Made by a program: the position numbers and the translations under genes. This document shows, piece by piece, positions 115-58,496 of a stretch of 64,000 bases of DNA (its first letter is position 1; each line of letters starts with the position of its first letter). This stretch comes from Psococerastis gibbosa. Lineage: Eukaryota; Arthropoda; Insecta; Psocodea; Psocidae. The DNA is taken from the NCBI GenBank assembly GCA_963971405.1, contig OZ020487.1, positions 12,621,344 to 12,685,343 on the forward strand. Reading direction: 5' to 3'. The notes under the pieces are model-generated. The model searched no databases. It was not told the origin of the DNA and was given only the letters and a program-made list of their open reading frames with translations.

Positions 115-3100
115 CTGAAAGCAATATTTTTTAGTTATTATAAAAACTTCAAGACTAAACGAATATGAAGTTCTCTATATTAACTCGAAAAGGTGTATTT
201 AAAATTAAACAGAGCTCTCACATTAAGCTGATCTGTATGTACGTAAGTAATATTACAGGATATAATTAAAACTACCAAAATCCGGACGAATGGGCTTTAA
301 GTGAAAGGTACTAAAAGACCAAGGCGTTTCGGGTACAACTTAAGACATCATCAGTGACGGCACTGAGTGGAGAGTTTGTTTTAACTTGTTTAACCTGGCT
401 TATGTAGGCCTTATTTATTATTATTTATTACGCTGCTTAGTCTTCCTGAGGTATGGTGTAGGTACCTTAGGTATGGTGTAGGTACCTTAGATTCATCACA
501 CCAGGCAAGGGTTTTCAAGAAGGAGTTTTGCTAGAGCTTTATTAATCTCAAGTTGGGAGCCATAAAAAAAATTAAGGGAAAGAATGAAAATCAATCAGCC
601 ATTCAGTGTAGAGAATAGAAACAAGGCACGTCAGAAACAATACATTTTTCAAACAAGAAAAATCTCGGTATCTCATCATCACGTTTACCCTTTCAATAAA
701 TAGTTTCATACTCGAAAACTGTAAAGAAACCAACTACCCCATGGATTTCAGACATTATTTGTATTGTTTCCGTATGAATTTTTGGTCATTGGCAAACTCA
801 TAATATTCGTTCTCGATGTCAACCTACACTGACTACAAGCGATAATGGACAAGCTGAGACAAGCTTAACATTGCCTCAATGAAACAGGCGAAAGCATAAC
901 TTAATTAAGAGTCTACCTGAACTAAGAATGGTGTAACCTAAAAATTATTGATTTCCTGCCCTCTGTTAATCAGATAGATCTTCAAGAATAGATCTAGTAC
1001 TAGATAATAATATAGTAATAATACTCTGTAGGGGGCACACCATCGACAGACATACTTGAGTGCATATGCAAAATGCAAAAATAATAGTAAAAAAGGGACT
1101 TACTGACGCTAAAAACTGGAACTTTGAGATGATTAGCCCAGTCTCTTAGATATATTTCAGCGGCCTTGGCAGTGTTTGATATGAACCCTCCCCCATGCAC
1201 GTGGATTATAATGCCAGGAGCCAAAGGCTCACGTCCACTCTGAAACATATGATAGTACAAAATAATAATAATAATAATAATGCGTGTATTTCTCAAAAAA
1301 ACATAACAAATTTTACTGAACCGGTGCCACACAGCCAAAAAGGCGCGTTGGGATCACCACAAGCTTGTCCATCGCCGAAGGTAAGGCTAGCTCCTCTTAT
1401 TTATTGGCACAAACTAGGTCGCCATGTTCTCACTTCTCCCATTAGAAACATACACTCCAGGCTCAAACTTGGTCATCTTATGGCAAACAAGCCGTCCCCT
1501 AGTTCTGTACTAGTACACCATAACTGTGACGTCCCAATAGGTTTAGCACTTAGTCGTCTGGTCTACATTGGTCCCAGATCCCTTCTGCTGCTTCCGTTAA
1601 CACTGCAACAACTACTCAGCATTGTCATTGTCATTGTGTACCATAAACTAATTCCATTCATCAGAATACTCTGAGGAGAGGCAGGGATTGATAACAGATT
1701 CCATCGACCTCGTTTGCACCGTGAGCGTGACATTGACGTGGTAGCAGACATTTTTAGACAGTCTTTAATGTCTGCTACCACGTCAATGTCACGCTCACGG
1801 TGCAAAACGAGGTCGGTGGAATTGCCGCCTTAACGCCTGTTACTTGTAAAATATATGAATAGGCCCCTATAAACAATATTTATTGCAAAAAAAAAAATTT
1901 GGAATCGTACGGACGGTTTACTTATCTCTACTCAAGGGCAAACTATGTTTCCCGTTGCGTAACGTGGCCGCCATATTGTTCTTCAGTAGACTCTAGAGTT
2001 CTATATAGGAGACATAGGACATTCGCTACCGCCAAGGATATTTTTGGAATTTCTGGTGCCACCTACACGTCATCTACGACCAATCAGAGCACACTTAAAC
2101 GCTTCCAAACGACTAAACAATCCTGTCGCGGTTGTAAGGCTTGGTCAAAATAGACGTGTAGGTAGGCTGAAGTTCTCACTGGTCCAAGAAGACGATGTAC
2201 GGGAAATTCAATAAATATTCTTGGCGGGAGTGAATGCCCCATCGCTCCTGTATAGAACGCTAGTCCCATTTGAAATACAAAAGAGTATCTTAACAAACCT
2301 GGTTATATGGTTTTTTGAATTGACGGCTCTGAAGCCGTTTTTCTGCGATACTCTTTCTTTTGCAAAAGGCACAAGAAGGTACAAACCATTATTCCCCGCC
2401 GTAGCACAGAAGAAATCAGACGTCCATTAATTTTTTTATCCTCATGAGATTCATAGTGAGATGAATATGCCATTGGTCTCATCAGCCTGCACAGCAACCA
2501 TAATATTCCTGAAAAGTAATAGATACCAAATGTGTTACTTATTGATAAAGACATAACACAGCCCATCGACAGTGGCCATCCCAAAATAGGTTGGCTTATA
2601 TTACATTTTTTTATTCTTCAGATATAAAGATTTAGTCTTGTTAATTGATAGAGGACTATTTCATCAAATGTATTAAAAGGGTTTTTCATTTTTGCTTTTA
2701 TAATTTTTCCATAACTTGATAATTCGTCAAATTTCGGTTGCTTATCAATTTCATGGAAAACCCCTTGCACCAAAACTAAAAAAAATCATCGTAGCACTAT
2801 ATTAGAAACCAAATTGATAAGACCAAATCTTTATAACTTAAGTATTAAATTAAATAAAAAATATAAACCAGCTTATTTTGGGGTTATCCAGGGGTAACTA
2901 ACTGCAAAGGCTTTCACGGCCGGAGTCGAATGAAGAACCTGTAGAATCCGGGATGATGGGCCGTGGTCGAAATGAAAGTGAACTTCCAAACGTTTCGTCA
3001 ACATCTGCGGTTGACATCTTTAGTGGCGCTGCGTAGACTTCGAAGGTTGTACCTCGGTGGCTCCGTAGCGCCACTGAAGATGACGACCGCAGATGTTGAC

Positions 3101-5645
3101 GAAACGTTTGGAAGTTCACTTTCATTTCGACCACGGCCCATCAGCCCAGATTCTACTGGTTCTTCATGATCCAGGTGTGGTCAATGTGAACAGCCAGCTT
3201 CCCCTTAAGCGTTACTTGGTTGACACCGAGAACTGAAGTGTTTCTAACTATATATTAAATTTAAGTTTTTATTTCAATTTAAGCTGAATTGAAATTTTCA
3301 TACCACTGTCAGATGAATTCCAAATGCTTCTAATGCTGTAAATATCCGCATGCCAAAACATTTTGACCAATCGCTGAGCCCTTTTCACCTCGTTTATTTC
3401 CCGTGAGAACCAGTTGAATACCCATTTCAGCTGCCACGAAAGCAATTCATCGAACTGTAATCAAATGTAGATCTTTTGTAAAGAAAATTTCGTCTACTTG
3501 TTTGGAGACAGCCAATCCGAAAATTTGACTTTTATGGATAAAATTAAATTACTCGGGACTTCGTTGAATTTCATTTTAATGAAAAAACAATAAATCCGTG
3601 TTTTATCAAAACTTGTCATCAAAACTAATGTTAGTAAAACCCAAGTAAACGTTAAAAATTCACTTTGTCAAAGAAACCAACTAATGCTAGTAAAAACTTT
3701 TTTTTCATTTTTTCTTCGGGTTGAGCAAGTCTCAAATCGTTGATAAAGTGTAATTGACAAGTGGGCAAGTTCACCGGAGAATTGAGAAATCCATAGTAAT
3801 AATTTACAAGCAAATACAAAGACAACCCGATCCCGAATTTCTACTATAGCGGGCGGTTCAAACAAGGTCCCGGGCAAAAGAGGAAATGATCCCTCTCGTA
3901 GAAGTAGTCAATTTAAATTAAGATTTTTTTTTTTTTTTTAAAGGCTAATCGCATACAAACAATTCAATGACTGCATCCGATTGACCTCTTCAGTCGCCTC
4001 ACTAAGTTACATAACAGGTACTTGTGTCGAGTAACGACACGTCTCCGATCGCATGGCGTGTAGAGACTCGCACACGTATAAGCACGCTACCACCTGGCCA
4101 TCGAAGTCGAAGAACCGTGGCACCTCACGAGGAGAAACCTGGGGGTTTCCCCCGGAGGAAAAATTTAAAAATTGAGGTAGGCCTACGTTTCAGGTATTTC
4201 ACATGCATATACACTGGACCTAAAATGAAATATCCGCTGCATCAATTAAAAGCTGCTGAAATTTCAAATTCTTCTCGCACAGAGAATTTTATGAGTGATT
4301 TTTATTTCGTTTTTGCTAACATCAGTTGGACTATGAATATGGTGGCACAGGGACACCAATGAGCAGGACATCGGATGTGGGGGCTGTGGATACTCCCTTA
4401 GGGAAAATTGTTGAAACCTTAGGCGTAAATTAGTCGGAGTTTAGCATTTCTAGGTGTTGTTTTTTTAGAAAACCAAGAATAAATTTTATACATTTGGACA
4501 TTTGCACTGGCGGCCCCCATCGACATGTGTGTTAAATTAATGACAAAATAGGAAGGTCTACAATACTGATTAATTATATAATTTTTGTGCTTGCGGTAAC
4601 CCTTCATCAGATGTTTACCTGCAATCCGAGGAAGTTCCCAAAGAAACACTCGAACCGCATTCCTTTTGTTATGCGTAAAAGTTCTGACACAGAAAAATGT
4701 TCTCTCGTGAGTAGTTCACCATCGGGATTTTGAGACATCATTTGAATAAGGTGGTCAAACAACTGTACTAGAGTAAAGTGAATGTCACTGAGTTGCCGCC
4801 ATCTCCTATAAATCGTAAAATAATAGACAAAAAAAACCAACCAGTAGGCTCATCAAATTTTATTAAGTTATGCTTATATTATGTTACAAAAAACAAAAGG
4901 ATTGCTTATTGCTATTAAGGGCTACAACAAATTCTCACTTACGAGACATTAGTACAGCGATTCTGTAATAACTGGTGAGTGATCCGCGCAACCTTTTCAG
5001 CTATTTTAACAAACGTTCGGTAGCCGTTCACTGGCACGTCCAGATCATAATTTGGAGCTTTTGCTGCGACTATTAAAACCATTGGTCCCAACTTTTCGTT
5101 CTTCCTAATGATACCTGAAAATTCAGTCATAGTCCTAACTATAGCAAATACCTAATGAACAACGAAAAATTATTGCAGAATTAATCTGCAGTACGGTATA
5201 CCTTATGTGCGAAAACCTTACTGTGCACGGCAGTCGGGACAAAGAGGATAATGATCCCATTTAACCTACTTTCTAAGCAAGATGTAATTGATCTTCAATA
5301 TGCCCGCAATCGCTGTCTTTAATTAAACATTTTTATCTCCCGTTCACTGGAAGAAGTCGGAAGTAGAAGATATTATACCAATTTAGGATCAACCTTTTAA
5401 GTTTTAACCTAGCATAAGCTATAAACCTACTTACCGAGTATTAATGATTTCACCTCTGTGAGCCTGCTGGTGGCAGCCAACATCATCTGATCTTGGCCGT
5501 AAGCCAATATTTTTTGAATAACTTCATTGTAGGGCTCAGAATTTCGCCCATTAGAAGATGAAGAAATTAGAGGTTGTAGCTGCCGAATGAAGAGGAAGAC
5601 AATATCTGTGGCTTTCGATACAATCGAATTAACAATTACAGCCAT
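1..5645 (-). CDS. Hsl: Hormone-sensitive lipase homologue, N-terminal part (gene continues past the left edge)
   Basis: A cytosolic/lipid-droplet neutral lipase that hydrolyses diacylglycerol and other acyl esters in fat mobilisation. Seven exons are inferred on the minus strand: 5645-5435, 5114-4943, 4805-4619, 3454-3304, 2508-2387, 1239-1104 and 114-1. All junctions are GT/AG and every phase agrees. The product starts MAVIVNSIVSKATDIVF and carries the HSL N-terminal domain (PVNGYRTFVKIAEKVARI; MRFECFFGNFLGLQ, compare CFYGRCLGFQ in mammals). The alpha/beta-hydrolase fold then begins with the oxyanion motif HVHGGGF and continues as NYSLSPEHRHPTAMHE, where mammals have DYSLAPEAPFPRALEE. The catalytic GDSAG exon lies off the window. 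The start was chosen as the first in-frame ATG. Exons 3454-3304 and 2508-2387 are less conserved and rest mainly on phase and position. Introns contain inverted-repeat elements and a SINE. Family assignment is firm; full exon structure is moderately firm. Confidence 0.86.
1104..1239 (-). CDS. Hsl: Hsl exon 6, oxyanion-hole HGGG motif
   Basis: It lies between acceptor TTTCAG and donor GTAAGT. It encodes SGREPLAPGIIIHVHGGGFI and then the segment ending VPVFSV. HGGG forms the oxyanion hole of HSL-type hydrolases. Confidence 0.93.
1680..1829. mobile_element. Foldback element (family A), left end decayed
   Basis: A near-perfect palindrome: ACGTGGTAGCAGACAT and its complement face each other around a 20-base centre, with arms continuing through CGTGAGCGTGACATTG. 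The right end GGTGGAATTGCCGCC is intact and followed by TTA; the left end is degenerate. It lies between Hsl exons 5 and 6. Confidence 0.8.
2387..2508 (-). CDS. Hsl: Hsl exon 5 (tentative)
   Basis: Acceptor TTTTCAG and donor GTTTGT bound a 122-nt open stretch whose phase joins both neighbours exactly. It begins GILWLLCRLMRPMAYSS, which can be placed after the conserved Trp-Asn of the HSL N-terminal domain, but the similarity is weak. It is the only phase-compatible candidate I found between exons 4 and 6. Confidence 0.5.
2578..3212. mobile_element. Inverted-repeat element (family C) interrupted by a palindrome
   Basis: The left part (CCAAAATAGGTTGGCTTAT, GATAGAGGACTATTTCATC) and the right end (GTGGTCAATGTGAACAGCC, then CTTCCCCTTAA) match the complete family C copy at 13515-14097. 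Between them sits the GACGAAACGTTTGG palindrome. It is in the Hsl intron between exons 4 and 5. Confidence 0.6.
2905..3176. repeat. Palindromic double copy of the GACGAAACGTTTGG repeat
   Basis: Two inverted copies meet near 3045. AACTTCCAAACGTTTCGTCA at 2980 mirrors TGACGAAACGTTTGGAAGTT at 3097, with arms of roughly 110 bp. Both strands give a similar open frame starting MVEMKVNFQTFRQHLR, a by-product of the symmetry. Confidence 0.75.
3304..3454 (-). CDS. Hsl: Hsl exon 4 (probable)
   Basis: Acceptor ATTACAG and donor GTATGA bound this exon. It continues directly from FLGLQ as FDELLSWQLKWVFNWF and includes RAQRLVKMFWHADIYSIRS followed by IWN, which resembles the mammalian segment ending FWKAFWNITE. 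The phase fits exon 3. Confidence 0.65.
3936..4135 (-). repeat. tRNA-related SINE, family 2, copy 1
   Basis: It reads on the minus strand towards a poly(A) tail (poly(T) at 3926-3940). It shares AGAGGCGACTGAAGAGG-type text, GGTAGCGTGC, and the tail TTGTTTGTATGCGATTAGCC with 33760-34320 and 37465-37690. Confidence 0.6.
4619..4805 (-). CDS. Hsl: Hsl exon 3, N-terminal domain
   Basis: Acceptor TTTATAG and donor GTAAAC bound 187 nt. It encodes WRQLSDIHFTLVQLF through FECFFGNFLGLQ, the conserved block equivalent to KGCFYGRCLGFQ of mammalian HSL. Confidence 0.9.
4943..5114 (-). CDS. Hsl: Hsl exon 2, N-terminal domain
   Basis: It lies between acceptor TTTTCAG and donor GTAAGT. It encodes IIRKNEKLGPMVLIVAAKA and DLDVPVNGYRTFVKIAEK, matching the HSL segment FDLDPETPANGYRSLV. 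Confidence 0.92.
5435..5645 (-). CDS. Hsl: Hsl exon 1 with start codon
   Basis: The first in-frame ATG is at 5645, with AACTATGG context. The exon encodes the N-terminal helices and ends LTEVKSLILG at donor GTAAGT. There is no signal peptide, as expected for a cytosolic lipase. An untranslated exon further upstream cannot be excluded. Confidence 0.8.
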
Positions 5646-9599: not shown

Positions 9600-11790
9600 T
9601 AGCAGCATTCTTACAGTGTGTTCATCGCTCATAAACTGCATTAAAAGCTCATGGCATCCCTTTACATCACAATCATCAGCAGATAGATACATAGCTAGTA
9701 CATATCATGTACCTATATCAAACCCAGTTGGTGAGGTCGTCCGGGGGATGAAGGGGTTCAAAAACAAGATGTCCCAAAATGTAGAGGAGTATTTTTTCTA
9801 AGGGATGCGATTTTTTATAGCTCTAAATGATTGATATTTTCTGTGAAATTCGACCCGTAAAAAAAACGCGTGTTGGGGGGGGGGGGGGGTGTCCGATTTG
9901 TAGGTGGCCGAAAGGCCCAAAATTCGTTTATAACCAAAATAAAGATAATTTCTATTCCCTCTATTTCTTTCTTAAAGAAAAAAGTAATAATGGGCTCAAT
10001 AATTTAAAATAATTAAAGTAAGAAATACTGTATATTACATCATATTTTCAATCCAAGTCCCTGATGCACCTTGGCTAAAGCACATCGTTCGATTTCGTTG
10101 GTACAACTTGACTGGCTGACCTTGCAATGCCAAATTGGTTGAGATATGCCGTGTTGTATCGAGTCACCGTATAGGCTGCAACATACCATTGTTATTACTT
10201 ATTATGCATTGTCATTTAAAGGCTCTATACAATTTCTACTTCCTATCTTTTGTTACTGTTTTCGCATTTATTCCTAAATGGCATCCTCTCGTTTATTATG
10301 GTTTTGATGAACTAGCCTGAGGTAGCCATTTACCAGTATATACAGCAACTTGCAGTATACGGTAGTAAAGTTTGGACATGGAATTCTGGAACATCGAGTA
10401 ATCTATTGATAACCTATAATCTTAGTAAAGTTCCTTAGTTTGTGAATTGGCTACTTGAAAGTTTTAACAATAAAATATGTAATAATATGCTAGATAAGGT
10501 AGCTTATAAGTTAAAAAAAATAACACTTTTTTTTTGTATGAAAACAAAACATTAGAAATCACAGGTGTAGGGAAATTTCTTGCGAGCGCAGACCTCACTT
10601 CACGGAGCGGTGGTTTCTTCTTCCCTTGCAAATGACATCCTATAGCACAACATATTTCGCACTAGTGCCGACCCCACGTTTCCTCTATTGTTGATTCCAT
10701 TAGAGCAGAGCATGTTTCAAGCTGCGGCAACTTGGTAGTGTGCACAGCGTTGGCAGGGGAACCTGGTGGGACATGATAACGAGCTTAGGCAGTATAAGTC
10801 GAGTCCTGGTCACCTCCGATTTAATCGTGTGACTTTACCAGTACCTTTACAAGTGGTTCGGAATCCACTATAATCAGGAGGTCCACCCTGTTAGTCAACT
10901 CCCCTTTCCCCGAAGAGAAAGTGTCTGTCCTTAGGGTGCCTCAAGTTAACAAGCAGACTCACTCCACCCGCCAGGCTGACAGGGTTGCTTAAAGCAGAAA
11001 TGCTGAAGGCAGGCGTTAGAAACAACAACAACAACAACTTTTCCTCTATGCTGCGATGTTGATGACTATGAAGTTTTAAATAAGTATCACATTATTTTCA
11101 CTTTGACTGGACACCTTGAAATTTCAATTCCACTTCTCCCTGAGGTGAAGAAGTTTGCCCTTCAAGTTTAGTAACAGACTCACTCTCCCCGCCAGACTGA
11201 CAGGGATGCAGAGATCTTGAAAGCAGGCGTTGGAAAACAAACACTTTGGGGGGAAACTGTCCGATAATTTACTTACAGGCCGTTTTGGCGCCCTGCCCCA
11301 CTTAAAAATGCCTTCTGGCCTATGCTTCCTTTGCTGAACCAGCCTAGCTGTGTCAGGGCCATGATAAAACCCCTCTCTTACAGGTAAGGTACCTACTCAA
11401 TTATAGTACTATTGGCGGGCTAAGTCACGCTTACGCCTATTGCATTGTGTAAGTGGCAAGCGTATCATCTCAGCATGTACATTATCGCTTGTAGCCCCCC
11501 CCCCCCCCGCAGCTTCGTATAAATATTAGAAGTCTACGCAGTTCCATTGAATGTGTCGACGAAACGTTTGGAAGTACGCTTTCAGAACGACCACGGCCTA
11601 TCATCCCGGATTATACAGCTTCGTCACATATGTCCATATGTTTAGTGGGACTACAGTTTATGGAGACAATTGTACTTGTTAATAATACGACATTCCTAGT
11701 TTTGCAGTCATTGTTTAGTATAAAGCCGGGCTGAAGGCTGGGAACCTAGTGGCAGTATACATGCGACCTAGTGTAACTCGACAGGTGTTG
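9600..11790. other. Intergenic, repeat-derived, no gene seen
   Basis: No coding exon is recognisable. About 10555-10700 is an inverted copy of 15960-16110. About 10793-10905 is an inverted copy of 31518-31625, and a related piece recurs near 11165-11230. A 14-base C run lies at 11495-11508, directly before a TATAAATA and a GACGAAACGTTTGG motif. Confidence 0.5.
11510..11625 (+). repeat. GACGAAACGTTTGG repeat, copy with TATAAATA
   Basis: CGCAGCTTCGTATAAATATT is followed by GTCGACGAAACGTTTGGAAG and a CGACCACGGCC stretch. The same arrangement occurs on the minus strand at 63600-63800 (CAGCTTGGTATAAATATCAG). It looks like the end of a dispersed element; see the finding on this motif. Confidence 0.55.
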
Positions 11791-11883: not shown

Positions 11884-14800
11884 GTAAGCCCAATAAATCA
11901 ATAAAAATTAATAGTACATTTATTTTTGTTGGGAACAAAGTTCATTGGTCAATGCATACACAACATTGCAAGTTGTGCGTAATTTAAAATAGGTACTCGA
12001 TACTGGAGCAACCAGCGCACTAACATGCATGACGCAAAGCGCAAGCAGTGCTGCGTGCCTATAAAAACTTCAGCGATTTTGTTGTTTTGTTTTAAGCTTT
12101 TAAAACACGTCAATGCTGATGTTAAATTAGGTATTTACAGTATGTGGCTTCAAGGCTATTACATATTCATGATTCATTCACTCCTTAGATGTAGAGTAAG
12201 ATAAGGAAGGAATGAAGTACAAATGAAGGAAAGAAAAGCCTTATAGGTGTACATAATCAAATTATCCAGGAAATATCGTTTGTTGAGCTAGCATTAGGTC
12301 ACATCCCTTAGAAGAAAGGTTTCTCCACGTTTGAGGATTCGAGAATTCGTCTTTCTACTGATACGATACTGATACTGTACGTTCGATATTTCCTGTGAAT
12401 GTGTGAAATTAGACTCTGTGGAGGCGTCATCGGGTTAGGTTGTTTCTTAATAGGGAAATTTTTTTCACATCCATTCAAGTATTCAGTAACCTGCTGGCTT
12501 ACACTTGAAATATAAATAAATAAGGACTTTTTATTGTTTCTATTACTAAGCCAACCTAGCGGAGTTAGGGCTATTAGGGCTAGGCTCTTTCACTCAACTA
12601 GGAAAGCCCGGGACCGCCTGCTTTACATGCCCTCCGAAGCATGGCCAGAAAATGTAGTCAGTAGATATGTATATGTATATAGCCAGTAAATATTACATTT
12701 GCTTTGTTTTAGGGGACAACCCATTGGCGACAATCACCGAGCTTGTAGTTGAAGATTGCCATGCGCCGCCCTGTCTTCTAGTCAGAGGTCATAACATTCA
12801 TATGAACGTTACTTTCATTCCTAGTGAGTGTTCCCTTTTTAATAGTTTTATCGATAGCTTGCAGTGGCAGCCAAGGTTCGTGTTATCAGCTAAGCCTATA
12901 TATTGGACTTTTAGGTCTGTTTGCCAATTAATGCTTATTTACTTATTTAAGATCAAATGTTGCATACCCTTCGGAAACAGGGCAACAATCTGTCAAAATC
13001 ATTACTGTTGGAGACAGCCTCCCTGGCCCCCTTCTTATGAACGCAGCCAAGTGTCTTGAACTTTGTCTTATGCCAACTGCTCGACTGATTTCAGACATGA
13101 AATGCATTTTATGGGGCCTTTGGCTTGCCTTCCATTGACACAATGTAACATGGCCATGGGTACCTAAGTTGCAGAGGAGTGGAATGAAAGTCCGTATTAT
13201 TATCTTCGATAGTGGTAATCAAAACATTTTACGATCAACGATTTCAAGATGGCGTCCAGTCGAAGTGAAAATAATTTATAATGTCATACTTAGCCGGCTA
13301 TTCCACTTGTATATTACGTCATTTGTGCATCAATTATTAAAGAAAAATTGACAGGTGGAATAGCCGGCTAAGGAAAATTTCAGAGTCGTCTGCATTGTGG
13401 CTCAAAATTTGGAACACAGGAGTGTTTTCTTTGTTGATGTTGTGGTCGGGAATAGAATGGAGTCAATAGAGTGCGTATAGTTTTCCTTTAGAAGTATGTT
13501 TTTTACTTTTTATTAAGAGGAAGCTGGCCGTACACATTGGCCACCCCTTTATCACTACAAAATAGGTTGGTTTTTATTTTTTATTTACCTTTTTTATTTA
13601 TATTTATTTTATAGAGATTTGGTATATTCAATTGGTAGAGGACTATTTCATGCATTGTACTACTTTGGTGCAGGCGTTTTTCCGTGAAACTGATAATAGA
13701 CAGAATTTGACTGAATTATCAAATTCATGGACAAATTATAGCATTAAAAATAAATAAAAACGCCTTATAATAGGGTGTATGAAATAGTCCTCTACCAATT
13801 GAACATACCAAATTTCTATAAAATAAATAAACAAGTTAAACTGGAAGGGCGAGAGGGCGAGCCTTCCAATTCAATAGTACCACGGGGGGTCCCCTCCTTC
13901 AGTATCCCCAATAGTTCAGCCTACAACCCTACAAATTTTTGCTGCGTGTCGCGCCACAGGGGGGGCCAGCCCAACTCAGTACCCTGCTAAAATCTGTATC
14001 TGGTGCGCCCAAAGAAGTTTCACTTCAATACAAAATAAAAACCAACCTATTTTGTTGTGAACCAGGGGTGGCCAATGTGTACGGCCAGCTTCCTCTTAAT
14101 AAAAAGTAAAAGAGTGTATATCCCGTAGGAAATTGGCACCCCGAAATTTAATACCGTAAACCGGGGCGAAGCGAATGAGTTTTGACGGTTTTCTAAACAT
14201 TTAATAAGGTTTTTAAAATATGAACTTTACTCGCTGACTCACAGAACAACATAATATTGGCTGACTCACAGAGAGCAAAGCTTAATCATTCATTAACTTA
14301 GTCCTGTTATAAATTAGACGTTCGTTATCAATATAATAACAAATAGTTTATGGCCCATACCATGAGGCGAAGCGAATCACACCTTAAAATCGCTGCCTGA
14401 TTCTCTTCAGCCTGCCCTGGGGTATTGGGAATCGAATTATTTTTGCACTGAATTTCAAAATTAAAACGTTTCCGCATACACAGACGTAGCTATAAAGCTG
14501 TGTCCACACTACAGTTGCAGTGTGGACGTGTGATAGCGCGATCAGTATCGCTCGCAATGCTTCAGGAAGAAGATGACGTAGTGTTGGCCGCCGCTGCTGC
14601 CGTAATTTTGCCTTGTGCACCTATGCACAGGAAGAAAAGATTTTGTGTTCGACCGAGTCTAAAAAGCAGGACTACCTACAGCGCCAGCGGGGGGTCCACC
14701 TCAATGTATTAAAAACCCCTTAAAACTCGATTGCATATTCAGGAACGAACAGACCAATACATTGTAACAGTAGTAACAATGACCGGGCACGCAATGTATT

Positions 14801-17800
14801 GGAGCGTGAATTTTCCATAATTTATTCAACAAAACAAAAAATTTTCCATGAACCAAAAGTTTTTTTTGGGAAATCAACCTGTTTGGTTTTGTTACTCTAT
14901 TGAACACCTAAAACATGTCTGAAGGTAGAAATCATCGAGAGAATGGTACCGCAGAAAAATTATTTTTTAATCATTTTTCATGAAAATTGGCTTGTTTTTA
15001 ATTTTTTACCCCCAGAAGCAAACTAGCAAGGGGCAAGCGACCCCCGCATTTTTTCAACATTAATAACGACTACAATATATGTGAATTTTAAGGAAATCTT
15101 TGGAACCTTTTTTGAGAATTTTGACTTTTTTTTTGAGTTTTTTGAGAATAAAACCCCCCCAAATTGTGAGCTACCCCCAAATAAAATAAAATTGTCTCGA
15201 GGTATGATTTTTGTGAACCTACATGCCAAATTTCATCAAAATTGACTGAGTAGTTTGCCCGCAAATCTACTCACAGATGACTGAAACCTGACCACACGGG
15301 TACAGAGAACATGCGCATTAACAAATGCATCGGGAATAGGGATCAAGCGCCTTCCACACTACAGCGTGCCGATCGGCTTCCTTTAACAGAGACCGCAAAC
15401 TTTCGGATCCCGTAATCCCTGGCCGTAATGCATTGCGTCCACACTACGAAAAAGCACTATGGCATTGCCATAATGCATTGCGTTATGGCATAGTCTGGAC
15501 GCAGCTTTAAACAACTTCGAACTAAAAAAAATATTTTTCAATTTTTTATCTTGATTAAAAGTGTACAGCCCGTAGGAAATTGGCTCCCCGAAATTTAATA
15601 CGGTACTTATTATTTTTTATTTCATTAACTAAGCAAGTTGTTAATGATTTGGTTCATTTAAGTTGTAGAAGACTACTTCATGCGTCATATAATAATGTAG
15701 GCTATTTTTAATTTTCGGAATTGTAGTTTTTTCATAAACATGTTAATATTTTATAAACAATAACTTTTGGCGTAAAATAGATACCGTACTATGAAAAAAA
15801 ACAATTTCAGAAATTAAAAATAGGCTTACTATATGATGCATAAGGTAGTCTTCTACAACTAAAAATGAGCCAAATCTTTAATAACAATTGCTTAGTTAAT
15901 TAAATAAAAAATAAAAAGGATTAAATTTTGGGCTGCCAATTTCCTACGGGATGTACACTCGCTTAAATACCTACTGTATATAGCAGAGCATAGAGGAAAA
16001 GCGGGGTCGGTGCTAGTTCTGCAATATGTTATCATGTGCAAGGGAAGAAGAAACCAGCGCCCCGGGGTCTGCGCTTGCTTGAAATCTCCCTCTACTCTTG
16101 CTCAAGTGATCGGCCAGAGCCGAAAGGGATTTTTTTTTCTACTGTTATTATTATAATTATTTCAACTTTTTTCAGATGCCAGCGTTGATAAAATACGAGC
16201 ACACGCTTTTGGAAAAGTAGCTGACATGTCTGTTCCGTACAAAGTGCCGCAAGAAGATGCTTGCGTCGACTCTGGACTGACTTGCCCTCTGGAGGCCCAA
16301 AAGGAAGTTACTTATTTCGCTACTCTGCCTGTCCAAGAGTGGTATCCATTGGTAAGTTTTCTGTTCTTCGATATACCACATGCGTCTTCACCATCTTTCC
16401 AACACTTTTTTTAGATCTGGTAGTCCTAAGGTGCCCATTCCATTGACCGGCTAGGGCTATTTCCAAAAACGGTGACGTGGTAGCAGACATTCAAGACTTA
16501 GGTGGCGTTTCCATCGACCTCGCATTGCAGAATTGACGGAAATGTTTATTTTCCTCTATGCCATAGTTAAAATTGATCAATGATCACACAGTAAAATCAC
16601 AAACAAACAAACTAAAATTAAAAAATGGCGTCATGGGATATGTTAAGTAGGCTTACAAACATTTTAATAGATTTCTATAAAAAGAAAAATTCTAATTTCC
16701 GTCAATTTCATTTGCATTCTGCAATGCGAGATCGGTGGAAACTCAACCTAAGTTTTGAATGTCTGCTACCACGTCACCGTTTTTGGAAATACTATTTTGC
16801 TCTTATATTTTCAATTTTTCCTTAAATCCTGCCTGATGACGTCATAAGGTTTACCTAGTTTTGCCCCCGCCATCATTCTAAAACTTTACGCCTCTGGGTG
16901 GAGATGTACCCTGCTCCAGTGTTTCCCGAGCTTGGCATAGAGGAGCCGTCACAGTATATATGGAGCCACTCAGCAGCCGAGCCGGATAAGTTGTATGGAT
17001 TGTTTTTTTAATGCGGCTTTTCTCAAGGCTTCACTGGTAGATGGGTTTGTAGGGAGATTATGGCTAATTATAGATATAGCTGGGCGACTGGTAGCGAGTG
17101 CACGACTTAATGTTGTCCAGTAGCCTATGCTGTATTTGGATATGATTTGACTTACTTGACTTAATTAGGCGCGATCAGCCCAGGGGGACTTTTGGCCGCT
17201 CTGACGATTTCCCTCCATCTTTGCCGATCCTCAGCAGCCGCTGTCCAATCTACTGCCTCGACGCCAACTCGAAGGAGGTCCTCCTGGAACTGGTCCGCCC
17301 ATCTTCGCCTTGGTCTTCTTCCGCGGGGGATTGCTTCCCACACGGCCTTTGGGGGTCTGTGGTCCGGCATCCGGTGCACATGTCCTATCCATTGTAGCCT
17401 TTTTGCTCTAAGATCGTCAATGACGCCGAGGGCATTGTAGAGCCGATGGATTTCGGCTTTGCATCGGATTCGCCAGACTCCGTTGATGACTGTACCTCCA
17501 AAGATCCTGCGGAGCATTTTATTTTCGAAGACCGAAAGCATTCTCCGGTCCCGATCAGTCAATGTCCATGATTCGGCGCCATTTAGAAGTACAGGTTTCA
17601 CTCGAGTTTTGTATAACCGTATTTTTGTGGACCATGAAAGAAGTCGGAAGTTGTCTTGTCTGAAAATAAGCCGCATTGGCACTTTGGATATGATAGAATT
17701 CGCAAATGTTTTTTTTTTTCATTTTAGGCGCGGGACTATTTCGAGTATTTCCGCCGGTCTCTGTAGCCAAGCTTAGCTAATATTCGAACAGCCCTGCGCT

Positions 17801-20566
17801 GCATCTTAAATGCTAGGCTGGCCAGTGGGGCATGTCCCCAAGCCAACACTGCATAAACTAAGCGGCTGTGAAAGAGCCCAAAATAAGCCGTGAGAAGAGT
17901 CATTGCATCTACACATTTTGAAATATTTCTTAGTAAATAAGTTATTTTACTTAATTGGTTCGCCAGTTTTTCGCAGTGGACGTCCCAGTTTAGGGTTGGA
18001 TCGAGGTACACGCCCAGCAAGCGAGCTTCACTGGGATTAGCTATGCCAGAGAGATCTCGAAGGGAGAATGTCATATGCACCGTTTTGTTTTCGTTTAGTG
18101 TGAGCCTATTTGAGATCATCCACTCGTGGATTGTGGAGTTCGCCACTTTGTTTAGTGCTTCTGCTTCAGAATAGACTTTATGGGATGATACCGATGTACA
18201 ATCATCTGCGTACATTAGGCTGAAGGAGGGTTTAAGGGTACGGGGTAATTCATTCGTACAGACGATGAAATACAGTGAGCCGAGGATTGAGCCTTGTGGG
18301 ACTGAATAGGGTCCGGATCCTCTGTTCTTGAGGTACGAAGCGATGAGAGCAATCGCTGATTCAGAGAAGTTGTATAGTTTTAGCTTTTTTAACAATAGCT
18401 CATGGGGGACGCAATCGAAGCCCTTTGTGACGTCATACATACTGGCTTTTGCAAAGTTCCCGTCCGCGAAGTCCTCAAGAATTCTATTGGTGAAGTTAGA
18501 AGGGCAGTCTCAGTATTACGTTTTTTTCTAAAAGCAAACTGCTCTTCCGTGAAGATAGTGATTTTCGAAATGCCCTTGAAATTGTACATTAGGTGTCTTC
18601 TCGAAAACTTGGGAGAAGGCGGGGAGAATTGAGACTGGTCTATAGTTTGTCGGGTCTTTTTTGCAGCCTTTTTTGTGAATAGGCACAATTCTTGATTTTT
18701 CAGATGGTCCGGATAAGTTTGTATGGCTATTGATTCGTTGATGAGATAATGCAGGGGTAGTACGATGCAATTTGCTTGATTAGAAACGAGCCGTAAGCGT
18801 CAACGGCCTTGCTGTTTTTTAAAGATGCTATTGCTGTCCTAATGCTGACTTCCCCCACCGTTTTGAAGGAGAATAGTGGCGCAGACGTCCTTGGAATTTC
18901 ATTTAGTGGATCATAGGCTGGAGGAGGTAATTTTTTTTCTATGGATTTGGCAATGCCTTCAAAGTATTCCCGAAATGCAGTTTCTGATATGCAGTTTTCT
19001 TCGGGGCATTGCTAGTCCTGCTTCTTGACTTGTTTATAATGTCCCACATGGTTTTCCCTTTATTATTTGACTGAGCTATGAGGGTATTGTTGGCTGTTTT
19101 CTTTGCTTCGCTTATCTTCATTCGGTAGCGGCTTCTCGCCTGGAGAGCCTTCGTCGTTCCTCTGACGGATTTGAGTGATAGTGGTCTTTCAGTGAGTTAA
19201 CATGCTCTGATAATATTTTAAGCTCTTCCGTATACCATTTGGTTAAGAATTTCTGGTATAGTTTCCTTGGTTGGACAGGCTTAAGTGGGATAATCTTGTC
19301 CATATAATGTAGAATAGCATCTGTTAAGGTTGACCATTTTATTTCAAGGGGCAGATCTCTGGCTGGGAAAGACCAGTCGTGGCTTTTTAAAGCATCTCGG
19401 AGTTTGCTTAGTTTCAGGTCCGACATCCCTCTGCTGTTTCACACTGGCCCCTTGGAGGGTTCTCTTATTGACATCAAGATTAATTTGAATGGATTTGTGG
19501 TCGGATATTTTTGGGTCAATTGTAAAGCCTCCGTCATTTGACTTGTCACTTTTTATAAAGATGTTGTCTAAACAGTTGTTTTTCCTTGTGGGTTCTTCGA
19601 TACAATGATAATATCCAAATTCGGTCAAGAGGTAATTTATGGCTTTCCACTCTGGCCATTTGTTTATGACACACGCATTGAAGTCAGCGAGAATGGCTAT
19701 GTCGTTATACTGGTCTAAAAGCAAGAGAACTTTATCCATCTGCTCACAGAAAATGTTGTTGTTGAAAGTTGTGGTTTTGGTAAGGCGGCTATTCCACCGG
19801 CCGATTTGCTTCACTTGTGAAGCAGTGAATTTTGTCATTGACGTTTGTTTTGTTTTAAGGAGACTTTTATGTAGATACTTAACTTACTTATTATAAATTA
19901 AGTTATAATATGGTAGCAGATATCATTAATAATATTATAACTTAGATAAGTTAAGTATCTACATAATAGTCTCCTTAAAACAAAACAAACGTCAATGACA
20001 AAATTCACTGCTTCAGAAGTGAAGCAAATTGGCCGGTGGAATAGCCGCCTAACGAAAGTCTGACTACTGCGTATGTAGGCAATAGTCAGGTGGTGTTACT
20101 TGGGTCTTCAATCTGGAAGTCGCGTTCTTGTAACTGCCCCATTTCTTGGGGAAGATCCGTTTCTGCCTCTACCAGAATAGGAGTGATGCCCTTTTCCTGC
20201 AGCACTGGATTGACCGACCCCGACCTAGTCATTTCTGGTGTAGGCCTATGGCGATCCTGAGTGTAGTGGTACTGTATTAGTGTGATGTGGCAAACTGCCG
20301 TCAGGAGCTATCAGAACCTTCTAAAATAGTTTTTATGTTTGCCCGATTCAAATAGTGGATGTGTATGAGTTAGTAGTGTTGAGTAAATACCATGGAATGA
20401 AACAGGTGGAATTTGCTGTTGCAATACTTGGAATAATCTAATTTGTGTCATAATGTTCCAGATTTCTGTACCCGTGAAATGGGAGCTTTTGGATCAAGAC
20501 GACAATATTATATTCTGTACTGAAATCCTAGCCAAAATTGTGAAACCAAAGACGGATCATCACTAA
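11796..20566 (+). CDS. Npc2: NPC2-like ML-domain secreted lipid-binding protein (complete, four exons)
   Basis: A small secreted or lysosomal sterol/lipid carrier of the MD-2-related lipid-recognition family. Exons 11796-11883, 12713-12823, 16176-16351 and 20462-20566 join in phase to encode 159 residues. Residues 1-20 (MTGYLYVAVAFLAVGKATAS) are a signal peptide. Paired cysteines fit the ML fold: CAGDN, VEDCHAPPC, EDACVDSGLTCPL and IIFCTEI. NPC2 hallmarks are LLVRGHNIHMNVTFIP (NPC2: LHKGQSYSVNVTF), a VPYKVPQEDAC block, and the terminal ISVPVKWELLDQDDNIIFC. An NVT sequon is present. Arthropods have many NPC2 paralogues, some used in ecdysteroid handling, immunity or chemosensing, so orthology is not implied. 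Intron 3 (4.1 kb) and intron 2 (3.4 kb) are full of transposon relics. An AATAAA at 20938-20943 is a good polyadenylation candidate. Confidence 0.93.
12500..12660 (-). repeat. tRNA-derived SINE, family 1, 3' body
   Basis: On the minus strand it reads TTTTCTGGCCATGCTTCGGA, GGGCATGTAAAGCAGGCGGT, then CTCCGCTAGGTTGGC and a (TTTA)n tail. The tRNA head is missing. Confidence 0.75.
12713..12823 (+). CDS. Npc2: Npc2 exon 2
   Basis: Acceptor GTTTTAG and donor GTGAGT. It encodes NPLATITELVVEDCHAPPC and the NVTFIP strand. Confidence 0.94.
13293..13368. mobile_element. Miniature foldback, GCCGGC ends
   Basis: 76 bp bounded by GCCGGCTATTCCACTTG and its near-complement, flanked by TTA and TAA. It lacks the GACGTGGTAGC core. 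It is in NPC2 intron 2. Confidence 0.7.
13515..14097. mobile_element. Inverted-repeat element (family C)
   Basis: 583 bp with long terminal inverted repeats beginning AAGAGGAAGCTGGCCGTACA and matching the complement at the right end (within TTATTAAGAGG..CCTCTTAATAA). A second, inner inverted module contains AATTGGTAGAGGACTATTTC. About 13845-14010 is an unpaired insert with a GGGGGGTCCCCTCC stretch. Confidence 0.8.
14490..15512 (+). mobile_element. PIF/Harbinger transposon relic
   Basis: A frame near 14556-14695 reads LQEEDDVVLAAAAAVILPC followed by KKRFCVRPSLKSRTTYSASG, which matches the N-terminus of arthropod Harbinger nucleases (an Ala-rich helix, then a (W/V)RPSLK..YS motif). Its flanks are imperfect inverted repeats: AGCTGTGTCCACACTAC near 14492 and GTCTGGACGCAGCTT near 15495-15510. 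The rest of the transposase is absent; a separate repeat (14745-15290) fills the interior. It is a DNA-transposon relic in NPC2 intron 2. Confidence 0.55.
14745..15295 (+). repeat. Dispersed repeat, copy 1
   Basis: It is shared with 42408-43145: both have GACCAATACATT, GCAATGTATTGG, TCATTTTTCATGAAAATTG, GCAAACTAGCAAGGGG-like text, and end near TACATGCCAAATTTCATC. Both are non-coding and the family is unknown. Short pieces also occur near 31343. Confidence 0.6.
15561..15958. mobile_element. Inverted-repeat element (family D)
   Basis: 398 bp, ends GTGTACAGCCCGTAGGAAAT and complement. An inner inverted module TAGAAGACTACTTCATGCGT recurs in 32022-32377. A left-end fragment of the same family lies at 14112-14157. 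Confidence 0.8.
16176..16351 (+). CDS. Npc2: Npc2 exon 3
   Basis: Acceptor TTTTTTCAG and donor GTAAGT. It encodes SVDKIRAHAFGKVADM through LPVQEWYPL, with the DAC..LTCPL cysteine pair. Confidence 0.95.
16430..16790 (+). mobile_element. Composite foldback element (outer family B), right end missing
   Basis: The left end GGTGCCCATTCCATTGACC follows TAA. The core GACGTGGTAGCAGACAT comes next, then a complete inner foldback bounded by AGGTGGCGTTTCCATCGACC and its near-complement. The closing core copy is present but the outer right terminal repeat is lost after TTTTTGGAAATA. Internal sequence is almost identical to 33904-34281. Confidence 0.8.
17161..17700 (-). mobile_element. 5'-truncated RTE LINE (3' end)
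   Basis: A 173-codon minus-strand frame carries the RTE C-terminal domain: RLYKTRVKPVLLNGAESWTL, RLQWIGHVHRMPDHRPPKAV, and RRWADQFQEDLLRVGVEAVD, ending AKSPPGLIAPN and stop. The frame is intact, so this looks like one of the younger insertions. It abuts the 3' side of the LINE at 17700-20150, inside NPC2 intron 3. Confidence 0.85.
17705..20160 (-). mobile_element. Decayed non-LTR retrotransposon with APE endonuclease and reverse transcriptase
   Basis: Read 5' to 3' on the minus strand: an endonuclease C-terminal half (NDIAILADFNACV; NCLDNIFI; ISDHKSIQINLD), a linker, then reverse-transcriptase motifs NYRPVSILPAFSQVFEK, FDCVPHELLLKKLKLYNF, VPQGSILGSLYFIV and the catalytic LMYADD, followed by LLGVYLDPTLNWDVHCEKL. 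The order and motifs fit the Jockey/CR1-like LINE groups. The frame is broken in several places (frame changes near 19420, 19120, 18940, 18690 and 18440) and the 5' end is missing. A foldback element at 19784-20049 splits the endonuclease. Confidence 0.88.
19784..20049. mobile_element. Foldback element (family A) inserted in a LINE, TSD TAA
   Basis: 266 bp, ends GGCGGCTATTCCACCGGCC and complement, flanked by TAA on both sides. The arms contain GCAGTGAATTTTGTCATTG and AAGGAGACTTTTATGTAG. It splits the endonuclease region of the LINE. Confidence 0.88.
20462..20566 (+). CDS. Npc2: Npc2 exon 4 and stop
   Basis: Acceptor TTCCAG. It encodes ISVPVKWELLDQDDNIIFC, the closing strand, and ends KTDHH with a TAA stop. 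Confidence 0.95.
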   Translation: MSVPVKWELLDQDDNIIFCTEILAKIVKPKTDHH

Positions 20567-28109: not shown

Positions 28110-28760
28110 TGCAAACAAATTCACGAAATTAATTGATTCCTCGTTCTGCAGCAGCAAAGATATGGAAATAGTCAGAGGAAAAATTACAAGCTTTTCCAGT
28201 AATTTTACATTTCCTCACCTCCCATTAGCCCATGGGGCAATTTTTTTTTTTTTTTTTTTAAATTTTAGAATGGAAAGCATTACTTTAGTATTGTTTTGTT
28301 AACATATTTAATCACACAATAAGTTATTCTTTGAACTGCATGGCATGGCAAATATTAATAGCCTACTATAAATAAACGCGATAAAGCGCTTTATACAGAT
28401 TTTTATACAATAGTACTGCAGTAATTCAGTTAGGTGGGTAGGTACTCAGTTTTTTGTGAAAGCTTGTATTTGATAAGGCGGCTATTCCACCGACGTCGAA
28501 TTTGAATGTGAATGTGTTATGACGTGGTAGCAGACATCATTAATAAGTCTCTGCCATATTTTAAGGAGACTGTTATGCAGATAATTAACTTATCTATTAT
28601 CAATTAAGTTATAATATGGTAGACTTATTAATGATGCCTGCTACCACGTCATAACACATTCAAATTCGACGTCGGTGGAATAGCCGCCTATTGAATTTTT
28701 CAACTGACCATTATCATATCTTTGCACTGGAATAACGAAGAATTAGTATCGTTTAAAAAA
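28110..28760. mobile_element. Inverted-repeat element hosting a foldback
   Basis: The left arm (AATTAATTGATTCCTCGTTC, ACAAGCTTTTCC) and right arm (GAAAGCTTG, TTTTTCAACTGACC, GGAATAACGAAGAATTAG) resemble the arms of 59930-60292. The foldback at 28477-28688 interrupts the right arm. Confidence 0.5.
28477..28688. mobile_element. Foldback element (family A)
   Basis: 212 bp, ends GGCGGCTATTCCACCGACG and complement, with core GACGTGGTAGCAGACATCA. Flanks are TAA and TAT. It sits inside another inverted-repeat element (about 28110-28760). Confidence 0.87.
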
Positions 28761-30552: not shown

Positions 30553-54142
<23,590 letters not shown>

Positions 54143-55075: not shown

Positions 55076-55078
<3 letters not shown>

Positions 55079-55924
55079 AGTCAAAATAGTGCAAAAATAA
55101 TTATAAATATTCTGTTAAAGCGAACCATATTACACGGAAACATACCTAGAAATATTGGGGTTTACAACAATCAACAATGTTTGTCTGGCTATTGCGATAG
55201 TGATTAATTATTCAACACGATATAGGGAGCATATTCGACTTCACCCTAACTACCAAAAGATATTTGCAATGGATCATAATCTACTGTATCACCAAATATA
55301 GTTCTTCTCCCCAAACAGACGCTACAACGGTGACTCAACAAGTAGGTCAAAATAGAATAACCCAGTCACTGGTGACTAGGTCATAATCAGTCCAGTCATT
55401 CAAAAGGGGGTGTTGGAGTGAGTCATAACAGATAAGTATTGAGTCATATCCGCACGCGAGTGAGCGCACGTCTTAAGGAAAATTTCATGGAAAACCTACC
55501 AAAGTTCGTGGACAATCTTTCTCTAATTTTATCTTGGGGTACTGTACAGTATATGCACTTAAGTATTACGCACTGAGTGAGTATTACTACTACTTGTTCG
55601 TCAAGAAATTTTCACTTAATGAATAATGATCAGGTTACACTTTTTTACACTCAGGTAGCTGAACTAAGCCTCACATGGTCCGGCCTTAGGCTATAATTCC
55701 ACATCAATTTTGATAATGTCATTGACGGAAATATCATTTATAGTTTTACACCTCAATCCACTTGTCTTAAATAATTGACCGTTTCTGTTTTCAATTTTTG
55801 CCAATTTTGTAAGTTTGCCTGCCGTTTTTCTTTTAATTTTATAATCTATTGTACAAGAAATTTTATGATTAAAATTATGAAATAATTCGTTTGTTCTCAA
55901 GAAACTGAAATTAATTAAAATTAT

Positions 55925-56102
55925 TTATAATATCCTGACGACGCCATTGTTTAATTTTAGTTTGTTATTGTTTGCAAAGCGTGATTTCATTCTTTGATCA
56001 TTGATCAATTTTAACATGAGGAAGTTAAAATGGACAATGAAATAAAGTAAAAAAAATCCATCAATTATTGACGGAATATTGACAAGTGGAATAGCCGGCT
56101 TA
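55925..56102. mobile_element. Decayed foldback relative
   Basis: The right end GTGGAATAGCCGGCTTA is recognisable. The interior (TGATCATTGATCAATTTTAA, ATTGACGGAA) matches the inner element of the family B composites. The left end is not identifiable. It links the GCCGGC-ended and composite types. Confidence 0.55.
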
Positions 56103-56228
56103 CCACATGGACTTCTCTTAAAGAAAGCTTTCTACACTGTCACTGAGGCACTAGCACAATGACAGAACTACCTGATTTTGACGATTTTAGTTTAATGAAC
56201 TTCATGTTGATTTCTTGTTGTACTTGTT

Positions 56229-56371
56229 GATTACTACCCAACCACGATAGGATGGCACTCGGAACACTTTGTTTATTCGAAAACTTGCATAAGCGGAATA
56301 CCCAGCCACCCAGGTTATTCGATTTTTATTAATGTTCCAAGTGCCATCCTATCGTGGTCGGGTAGTACTTG
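56229..56371. mobile_element. Short hairpin element
   Basis: ACTACCCAACCACGATAGGA at the left mirrors TCCTATCGTGGTCGGGTAGT at the right. About 143 bp with 35-bp arms. Confidence 0.75.
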
Positions 56372-57011
56372 ATTTTATAATTCAACAGAATAATATATTT
56401 ATTTATTTATAGCGTAGCCACTTACCAACCTTCCCACACAATAGCCAATTCCCAACCGACCAGCAAGCATTTTGCATTTTAGGTATTTCGGCACAAAGTA
56501 AGCATGTTGACTAGTAAGCCTGTCAAATAGGCAGGTCACTGCCAAATCCATGGATCGATGGAAATTATGTAGAGAAATAAAGTAGAAAACCACCATTCAA
56601 AACGAAATATTTACTAGACCAACAATCAAAACCTCACAGATATTCACAAAACATCGGATGAATCGACAAATAAAATGAAAACTTCAGAACCTATATTTTC
56701 AAAGCTGTGGGCAGAACCAGGAGTCGTATTCTTGTCAACAGACACCATAAACGAAAAAGAAAAAAAAAACAGTTCTCACAATTCCAATAACTTGTCATGG
56801 ACCATCACTGCTCGGGGCAGAATTGGGGTAAAGGGGGAAGGGGGGGGGGCGGAAGTCAGTAGTAAATACTGGCAATGGAGATCTAACAAGAGTTCTCAAG
56901 TCAATAGCCCCAAGAGGAGGGGCTGGCGGTTTTAGCATTGTCAACCTTCTTCCTCTTCTTCATCGGCGCTACCGCTCGGTCTTCCAGTCTTCCTCTGCCG
57001 AGCCACCACTG

Positions 57012-57200
57012 GCATAAATAAATAAATAAATAACTTTTGGTTCTATTACTAAGTCAACCTAGCGGAGTTAGAGCCTGGGACCGCCTGCTTTACATGCCTT
57101 CCGAAGCATGGCCAGAAAATGTAGCAAGTGTGGGACTCGCACCAACAACCTTTCGGACGAAAGTCAGAGTCTGTACCACTACTCTACATTTCCTGACATC
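57012..57200 (-). repeat. SINE family 1, copy with tRNA head
   Basis: The minus strand has the tRNA-like head (box A-like GTAGTGGTACAGACTC, box B-like GTTGGTGCGAGTCCC), the conserved body GGCCATGCTTCGGAAGGC, and a (TTTA)n tail. Confidence 0.75.
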
Positions 57201-58308
57201 TTCCGCTAGTCACCTCCGTGCTTTGCCGTATTCTGCTCTCCATTCTCGCTCAGTATACGAAGTTTGTAGCTCGGGTAAGTATTTACTTCAAAAGTTAGGC
57301 CTGGTCCCACCATCGCATGAAAAGTATTTGTAAGGAATACTGGATGGCACCGTCATCTACCAATACATGGCGGTACCGTGTAGGCGGAAGAAAAAGTTAA
57401 AGGCATTCATAACCTATAGCCTCTGTACAATACCATTAATTTTGTTCCCTATTACCAAAGTACAGAACCACGTTTTACTTCATATTTTTAAGTTCTTTTA
57501 TTCTTCACATTGTATTCAATTCGCAGCCGTTATGAAGCCCATTGGCGCCCAAAACGAGGGGCTCAACCTAAACTATATAACAAGAATCCATCCAACATCG
57601 CCCGATTTAAAAACCTCAGCCAACAGCCTAAGCTCTGCATAAAAAGGTTCTCCCCCCCCCCCCAACCACAAAAATAAACAATTCCCTATCACTGTAAGCT
57701 CTACACTTTATTGCTCAGAGATCAGACACTATATCTTCTGGGAAAAAGTTGGCAACCCTCCCCAAGCCCCGCCTCCCGACCCCCCCCCCCCCAAACAAAC
57801 TTTAATATCAATGGTAATAGAGGGGGAAGCAGTCAAAAACGTCACGAGAAATTGGTAATAACCAGATACCAGGCTGTCGTATCGGTATTCCTAATTTCAT
57901 TAAATACTTTTTCACAAGACAGACGACTTCGGCAGTTTATCACGGAGAAGGAGCGAGTGGATGAGAAAAAAGTGGAGGGGGTAAGCAATGGCGCCATCGA
58001 AATCTTCTCTACCAAATTAAGTGTGTTTTTTGGTGTGGAGTCGTCCCTTAAGGTAACGCAAAGGCAGTTAATGACCATCGTTAGTGAGCACGACTGCCCT
58101 TTGAGGGTCAGCTGACTTGACCACAGCTCAATTGGGAGTATTGTGGCCAGCAACATGCTCAGCAGCCGCGTTTTCCCCAACCGATGAGGATAAAGGGTGG
58201 ATCCAAGCTCGGAGGAATATATTTCCCTTTATTTCGAGTCTCGAGCCCCGAACTTCCACTCTATAGAACCTAGAACCGACTGTACTGAACTGACTGTAGA
58301 TTGTCATA

Positions 58309-58496
58309 GGCGGCTATTCCACTCGTCAATTTTCCCGTCAAATGTGATTAAAAAGAGTCTGCTACCATATTATAACATATTTAAGGAGACTATTATGTAG
58401 ATACTTAACTTATCTATTATAAATTAAGTTATGATATGGTAGCAGACTCTTTTTAATCACATTTGACATGGAAAATTGACAAGTGGAATAACCGCC
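58309..58496. mobile_element. Foldback element (family A)
   Basis: 188 bp, ends GGCGGCTATTCCACTCGTC and near-complement, flanks ATA and TAA. The arms share AAGGAGACTATTATGTAGAT with the copies at 19784, 28477 and 44715. Confidence 0.85.

Follow-up and report, generated by a model that had tools for sequence, protein, structure and literature searches.

Does a 64,000-nt window of the Psococerastis gibbosa genome (the window being the whole stretch of DNA that was analyzed) hold one family of mobile elements at ten near-palindromic places, and if so, how did its members come to differ from one another and what moves them? We find one diversified, non-coding family of hairpin elements (MITEs), of which each of the ten places holds a copy. 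The family is real and coherent and of a general kind that is already known, and all results on it rest on copies within the window. Its members share their ends, hairpins occur in most copies, the flanks consist of A and T only and resemble TWA, and comparison with empty sites points to a gain of 2-4 bp, mostly 3 bp, at insertion. The joint explanation that we favor, and that we regard as reasonably probable, is that these are diversified, non-autonomous hairpin MITEs that all have the same kind of end and are mobilized in trans, most likely by a PIF/Harbinger transposase whose gene lies elsewhere; the end would be bipartite, parts would be exchanged at a shared core, and composites would be moved as units. 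Although the elements belong to an ordinary kind, they form an unusually readable record of swapped, nested and re-moved parts. The elements, the inner elements of composites, and the paralogous copies of their surroundings that represent empty sites are as follows.

1695..1829, no strand: E1, hairpin MITE with a T1-type arm and the left tip lost; two full cores around a short loop
13293..13368, no strand: E2, 76 bp, GCCGGC ends, without the core; flanks TTA/TAA
16430..16800, plus strand: E3, composite in which T3 arms enclose an inner T7 element; truncated at the right outer end, right border approximate
16501..16748, no strand: inner T7 element of E3, between the outer arms; flanks TTA/TAA
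19784..20049, no strand: E4, T4-type hairpin of 266 bp; flanks TAA/TAA; central partial core GGTAGCAGA
28477..28688, no strand: E5, T2-type hairpin with the core in both arms; flanks TAA/TAT
33904..34281, plus strand: E6, composite in which outer arms of 71 bp enclose an inner T7 element; flanks TAT/TAT; two paralogous empty sites
33975..34210, no strand: inner T7 element of E6, bounded exactly by the two outer arms of 71 bp each
44715..44921, no strand: E7, T1-type hairpin with an E5-type interior; core of the right arm removed by a short deletion; flanks TAA/TTA
50760..51142, minus strand: E8, composite in reverse orientation relative to E3 and E6; 71-bp outer arms; flanks TAA/TAA
50831..51071, no strand: inner T7 element of E8
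55689..56099, no strand: E9, left tip degenerate; TTA on both flanks; interior shares homology with the inner element of E3, E6 and E8; without the core
58309..58496, no strand: E10, T5-type hairpin, GTCTGCTACC...GGTAGCAGAC (core part reversed in orientation); flanks ATA/TAA
37587..37677, plus strand: first paralogous empty site of E6; TAT once, 3-bp duplication fits best
3946..4000, minus strand: second paralogous empty site of E6; TAT once, 3-bp duplication fits best
60003..60061, minus strand: first paralogous empty site of E5; 3-bp duplication fits best
60162..60219, plus strand: second paralogous empty site of E5; 4 bp fits best, 3 bp next
11061..11122, minus strand: paralogous empty site of E2; 2 bp fits best, followed by 4 bp and after that by 3 and 5 bp

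Membership in one family is supported by mutual alignments at E values up to 1e-3, which range, among the matches listed, from 26 bp to 403 bp. Intact elements are 76-411 bp long with matching ends, are non-coding, carry TIRs and occur in several copies, as is characteristic of MITEs. Eight of the ten elements were folded, using RNA parameters and no shuffled control, and all eight gave hairpins. The long inverted repeats were also recovered by direct search, in which the arms of these elements measured up to ~105-111 bp (among the 25 longest of 43 repeats). An earlier note on this DNA had proposed a single superfamily of elements or fragments at these ten places; the shared ends and mutual alignments bear this out, and each place holds an element of the family or part of one. 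The same note had called them near-palindromic, which is true of most, including all eight that were folded, with E9 standing outside that hairpin set. Three of its positions were refined: the element placed at 1680 (E1) exists without its left tip, the one at 16430 (E3) is truncated on the right, and position 55925 falls within an element (E9) whose real limits are 55689-56099, with TTA on both sides.

The ends of these elements had been described as different terminal types. They proved to be of one type: 24/24 ends begin with G and have TTCCA in bases 9-13, counting outer and inner ends, many of which are copies of each other. The first 13 bases otherwise vary little (12 representative ends), apart from base 7, at which each of the four letters is represented. 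This makes GGCGGC, GGYGCCC and GCCGGC variants of a single tip, and a division of the elements into separate families by terminal type was rejected.

The second shared part is a 17-bp core, GACGTGGTAGCAGACAT, which has 11 matches in the window at up to three mismatches (10 exact, and one with a single mismatch), compared with 0.04 expected; none of 100 shuffles reached that number. The core is thus real, although the statement that most elements share it must be qualified, as the complete 17-mer is present in six of the ten (E1, E3, E5, E6, E7 and E8). E10 has only GGTAGCAGAC, in two copies that are both reversed in orientation, and E4 has GGTAGCAGA once with no complete 17-mer; neither the complete core nor the partial forms GGTAGCAGAC and GGTAGCAGA were found in E2 and E9. 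All 13 occurrences of GGTAGCAGA in the window lie within elements.

The elements with the complete core fall into subfamilies T1 (E1, E7), T2 (E5) and T3 (E3, E6, E8), and these were compared with each other in eight pairings of the arms E7L, E1R, E5L, E8R and E8L, with 300 shuffles each. The tips were related (12-16 of 17 bases identical) and the core was identical at 17/17 positions in all eight comparisons. The identity of the spacer between tip and core was not above that of shuffled sequence in seven of them (P 0.10-0.71) and was weakly above it in the remaining one (T1b-T2, P 0.033). The core starts 44-45 bp inside the end in eight of the nine full ends that keep it, the exception being E5R, where a 6-bp deletion goes with a core at 38 bp that has one mismatch; in E7R the core has been lost by deletion. 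The core occurs with only three types of spacer, which leaves n = 3 for the shared spacing. A shorter form of the pattern, forward TGACG at 34-56 bp from the end, was found in 19 of 24 ends, which are not independent of one another, compared with 5.1% of random 70-mers; it is missing from E2L, E7R, E9R, E10L and E10R.

From a core that stays identical across spacers mostly at the level of shuffled sequence, and from its 44-45 bp distance in eight of nine ends, the end is likely to be bipartite, consisting of a tip plus a subterminal motif. It is hypothesized that the 17-bp tip is where the transposase would cut, and that the TGACGTGGTAGCAGACAT motif 44-45 bp inside it would be bound by the transposase or by its Myb/MADF partner, which would be why the motif is kept while the DNA between drifts. 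That the core may be a binding site has a precedent in zebrafish Harbinger3_DR, in which, according to the partial text of PMC9710019, a Myb-like partner protein binds a 9-bp subterminal motif; a conserved subterminal motif is a likeness between that element and the present family. The core is not strictly needed at every end, since E7R has lost it, E5R carries it at 38 bp with one mismatch, and four of ten elements lack the full form. If the fixed architecture of tip and core holds genome-wide, it would offer a handle for finding the transposase and its DNA-binding partner, and it would explain how one transposase keeps mobilizing very different MITEs.

The earlier note had gone further and suggested that the core itself is selected. 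Constraint is indeed suggested by the identity of the core and its distance from the tip, although selection is not the sole possible cause, because the core is also the joint between exchanged parts in E7. This element is a mosaic with two histories: outside the core it matches E1 at 22/28 positions and inside only at 8/21, whereas inside the core it matches E5 at 18/18. The right arm repeats this combination of outer and inner parts, although its core is deleted. One alternative is therefore that the core is conserved only as a homology patch for exchange, by template switching or gap repair, such that recombination rather than selection keeps it identical and no binding role exists. The exact junction of E1-like outer and E5-like inner sequence at the core of E7 is what this would produce, and the T7 ends, which by eye resemble T1 up to TTGACG and then differ, point the same way. 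Exchange alone leaves unexplained both the 44-45 bp distance from the tip in eight of nine ends and the conservation of the tip next to mostly unrelated spacers, and we hold it to be rather unlikely as the full account. In the explanation that we favor, the motif would have both roles, doubling as a homology patch at which copies such as E7 would exchange their outer and inner halves.

The core together with its preceding base contains TGACGTGG, which occurs 11 times in the window and only within these elements (e.g. 1734-1741, 16473-16480 and 33947-33954). We take this sequence to resemble a bZIP/unfolded-protein-response element (UPRE), and one may speculate that the MITEs could scatter bZIP/UPRE-like sites.

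E3, E6 and E8 record another process. They represent a single composite present at three loci, with copies 93-95% alike over 363-386 bp, and the interior of their inner element is related to the free-standing E9 (69-79% over 94-145 bp). In E6 and E8, each outer arm is 71 bp long, so that the inner element, flanked by CTTA and TAAG, sits exactly at the center of the hairpin. The composite is thus an E9-like element centered in another hairpin and then moved as a unit, as E6 and E8 have flanks of their own (TAT/TAT and TAA/TAA). Insertion of the inner element at the center may account for this arrangement, as may fold-back copying that produced the symmetric outer arms. By the favored mechanism, hairpins would gain arms when one element lands in the center of another, and the composite would then move as a unit, as in E3, E6 and E8. 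Together, mosaic and composite copies form a small record in which the possible origin of long-armed hairpin elements can be read.

The fold-back route was considered as an explanation in its own right. It holds that a new outer part on one arm is copied to the other through hairpin-primed (snap-back) synthesis or mismatch repair of the stem, including the flanking triplet, so that direct target duplications would come to look inverted (TAA...TTA or TTA...TAA). This would account for E5 and E7, which share an interior, yet each have the same outer type on both of their arms, as well as for the inner element of E6 and E8 lying between equal 71-bp arms with the inverted flanks CTTA/TAAG. The arms of E7 are moreover 100% complementary over 51 bp, with the flanking TAA/TTA included, and all six base differences in the five mismatched flank pairs are A<->T. 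The last point loses force with flanks composed of A and T only, in which no difference other than A<->T can arise; the middle base of the flank is identical in five of nine insertions and complementary in four, which is near even. The arms also keep old differences: a 10-11 bp indel between the inner arms is common to E3, E6 and E8, and the 6-bp deletion in E5R and the deletion in E7R each persist on one arm. We think it rather unlikely that copying between arms made them symmetric. A wider proposal, that hairpin MITEs owe their diversity to arms swapped at a fixed subterminal core and to fold-back copying, in which stem mismatch repair even inverts the flanking duplication (TAA...TAA to TAA...TTA), is put forward more tentatively still and is judged unlikely; if it were true, ends of different appearance would share one core recognized by the transposase.

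For the target site, nine insertions with 18 ends were counted, leaving out E1 and E3, each of which has a missing end, and counting the inner element once. The flanking triplets were A/T-only at 18/18 ends, compared with a background of 24%, and TWA was present at 14/18 flanks, compared with 5.1%, which indicates a target preference. The likeness to the TWA target of PIF/Harbinger pointed out in the earlier note is thereby supported. Simple TWA duplications are a different matter. The two triplets are identical in four of the nine insertions (E4, E6, E8 and E9) and differ in E2, E5, E7, E10 and the inner element, and random re-pairing of the same flanks gives a mean of 3.1 identical pairs, with a P of 0.36 for the observed four. 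When the comparison was with random genomic triplets, 2 of 20,000 draws reached the 3/8 identical pairs of an earlier count. As re-pairing does equally well, the flanks alone are no proof of duplication, and their use as proof of a 3-bp TSD was dropped; only empty sites speak for its length. If flank mismatch of this kind is general, it would warn against classifying hairpin MITEs by TSD identity alone. Identical flanks of 4-10 bp were found in none of the nine insertions, and longer TSDs (4-10 bp) were rejected accordingly. Foldback/MULE elements have long target duplications of about 8-10 bp; the family differs from them in this respect, and an origin of that type was set aside.

Empty sites were defined as paralogous copies of the surrounding repeats without the element and were scored for duplication lengths of 0-8 bp, excluding matches of the flank search that did not span the insertion point. 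A 3-bp duplication was the best fit in three of five comparisons, two for E6 and one for E5. The second paralog of E5 fits 4 bp best with 3 bp next, whereas for E2 the best fit is 2 bp and 3 bp ranks below 4 bp. The margin of the best score over the next is only 1.5-2.5 points in these comparisons. A tabulation of target duplications, restricted to the window, thus favors 3 bp in most empty-site comparisons and falls short in the flanks themselves, which are identical in only 4/9. The best-confirmed target is that of E6, with two empty sites, and it is TAT rather than TWA.

Our best guess, short of assigning the family to that superfamily, is that the elements are mobilized by a PIF/Harbinger transposase, based on the TWA-like target, the gain of ~3 bp and the G as first base. 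PIF/Harbinger elements have a TWA TSD, and the first base of their TIR is usually A or G, as stated in the partial text of PMC4482050; the G at the first TIR position in 24/24 ends fits this rule. As in Tourist-like MITEs, which PIF/Harbinger mobilizes, the elements are short, have no transposase domain that was found, begin their TIRs with G, have TWA-like flanks and gained ~3 bp in most of the empty-site comparisons. They differ from them in arms of up to ~105-111 bp that form long hairpins, in flanking triplets that often disagree, in having TAT as the best-confirmed target, and in that no matching transposase was found in the window. The relic of a Harbinger coding region thought to lie at 14490-15512 did not hold up: translation of 14400-15600 in six frames gave no transposase domain and only two weak, sub-threshold matches to unrelated families. 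In addition, Pfam searches detected no DNA-transposase domain in any of the 79 stop-free open reading frames of at least 85 aa, a set consisting of frames contained within the window, with shorter frames covered only in 14400-15600.

The elements may instead be moved by a different superfamily or group whose target is a 2-bp TA or is AT-rich and 3 bp long (e.g. Tc1/mariner-like, NuwaII-like or other), which we consider unlikely. TA is present within 0-1 bp of each end, the empty site of E2 fits 2 bp best, and no transposase is known for these elements, all of which would suit such a mover; the C|TNA|G context reported for NuwaII in the partial text of PMC4482050 surrounds three of nine insertions (E2, E10 and the inner element), and the left flank of E10 is ATA. 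Set against this are the two empty sites of E6 and one of the two of E5, which fit 3 bp best, the six of nine insertions without a C...G context, and the duplication of AT by ISL2EU, which is at odds with the flanks found here (PMC4482050, partial text).

The groups ISL2EU, Spy, Pangu, NuwaI and NuwaII (PHIS superfamily), as far as they are described in the partial text of PMC4482050, resemble the family in that several have AT-rich targets, that GG is the usual first dinucleotide in ISL2EU and among Pangu, and that the TNA of NuwaII includes TWA. The targets AT, AAATTT without a TSD, ANT and CWG given there do not match the flanks of the family. ISL2EU, with the target A|AT|T and AT duplicated (PMC4482050, partial text), was rejected, since among E2, E4-E8 and E10 identical 2-bp flanks occur only in E2 and E10, and these are TA. 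Spy, which inserts into AAA|TTT without duplication (PMC4482050, partial text), was rejected because AAA/TTT flanks are absent from the nine insertions and the empty sites favor a net gain of 2-4 bp. For NuwaII, whose target is C|TNA|G with TNA duplicated (PMC4482050, partial text), the full context is present around 3/9 insertions at most, and the triplets are identical in none of those three. The Drosophila foldback elements Tetris and DAIBAM are likewise modular, non-autonomous and foldback-like, and are two element types that share only the final parts of their TIRs, which is another likeness to the present family; the arms of Tetris hold 220-bp tandem repeats (PMC4079207, partial text). 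In comparison with what that source describes, a short subterminal core is part of what the members share here.

That the ten places are chance palindromes or unrelated repeats with one short motif in common is refuted, and in our estimation exceedingly improbable, by the 11 core matches against 0.04 expected and by elements that align with each other over up to 403 bp at E values up to 1e-3, with nothing found in its favor. Using the ten elements as blastn queries, no further copy was found in the window at an E value of 1e-3. A profile scan of the window for further ends returned three extra weak matches (scores 9.9-13.3), compared with 4, 3 and 2 in three shuffled windows; as the scan missed the real, degenerate left end of E9, other degenerate ends may be overlooked. 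Exact-pattern scans of genome contigs and viral contigs for relatives yielded 47 loci, which we take to be chance or unrelated matches because none combines the end with the core. In a full-text literature search with four sequence strings, GGTAGCAGACAT appeared in four papers, all with titles on unrelated topics, and the other three strings were absent; a claim that the family is missing from the literature extends no further than those strings.

The window also contains other features. Kinase exons lie at 45508-45918, 46280-46633 and 53609-54142 on the minus strand, and since the last one matches DYRK1A chains, some of the elements are probably located in introns of a minibrain-like gene. 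Matches to an ML domain (E1_DerP2_DerF2 model) on the plus strand are below the Pfam cut-off at 12658-13059 and well above it at 16157-16414. LINE remains extend over 17161-19883 on the minus strand, with a reverse-transcriptase domain at 17736-18509; an open reading frame at 19344-19883 (minus strand) runs into E4 and has no Pfam match, and by eye we presume it to be LINE-like. Two other inverted repeats have no match to the MITE family, namely a hairpin at 2930-3167 with 114-bp arms that are 90% complementary and an element at 13501-14111 with 85-bp arms. A tRNA-like match at 41092-41158 on the plus strand, just above the Rfam gathering threshold and the only Rfam match in the scan, is possibly the head of a SINE.
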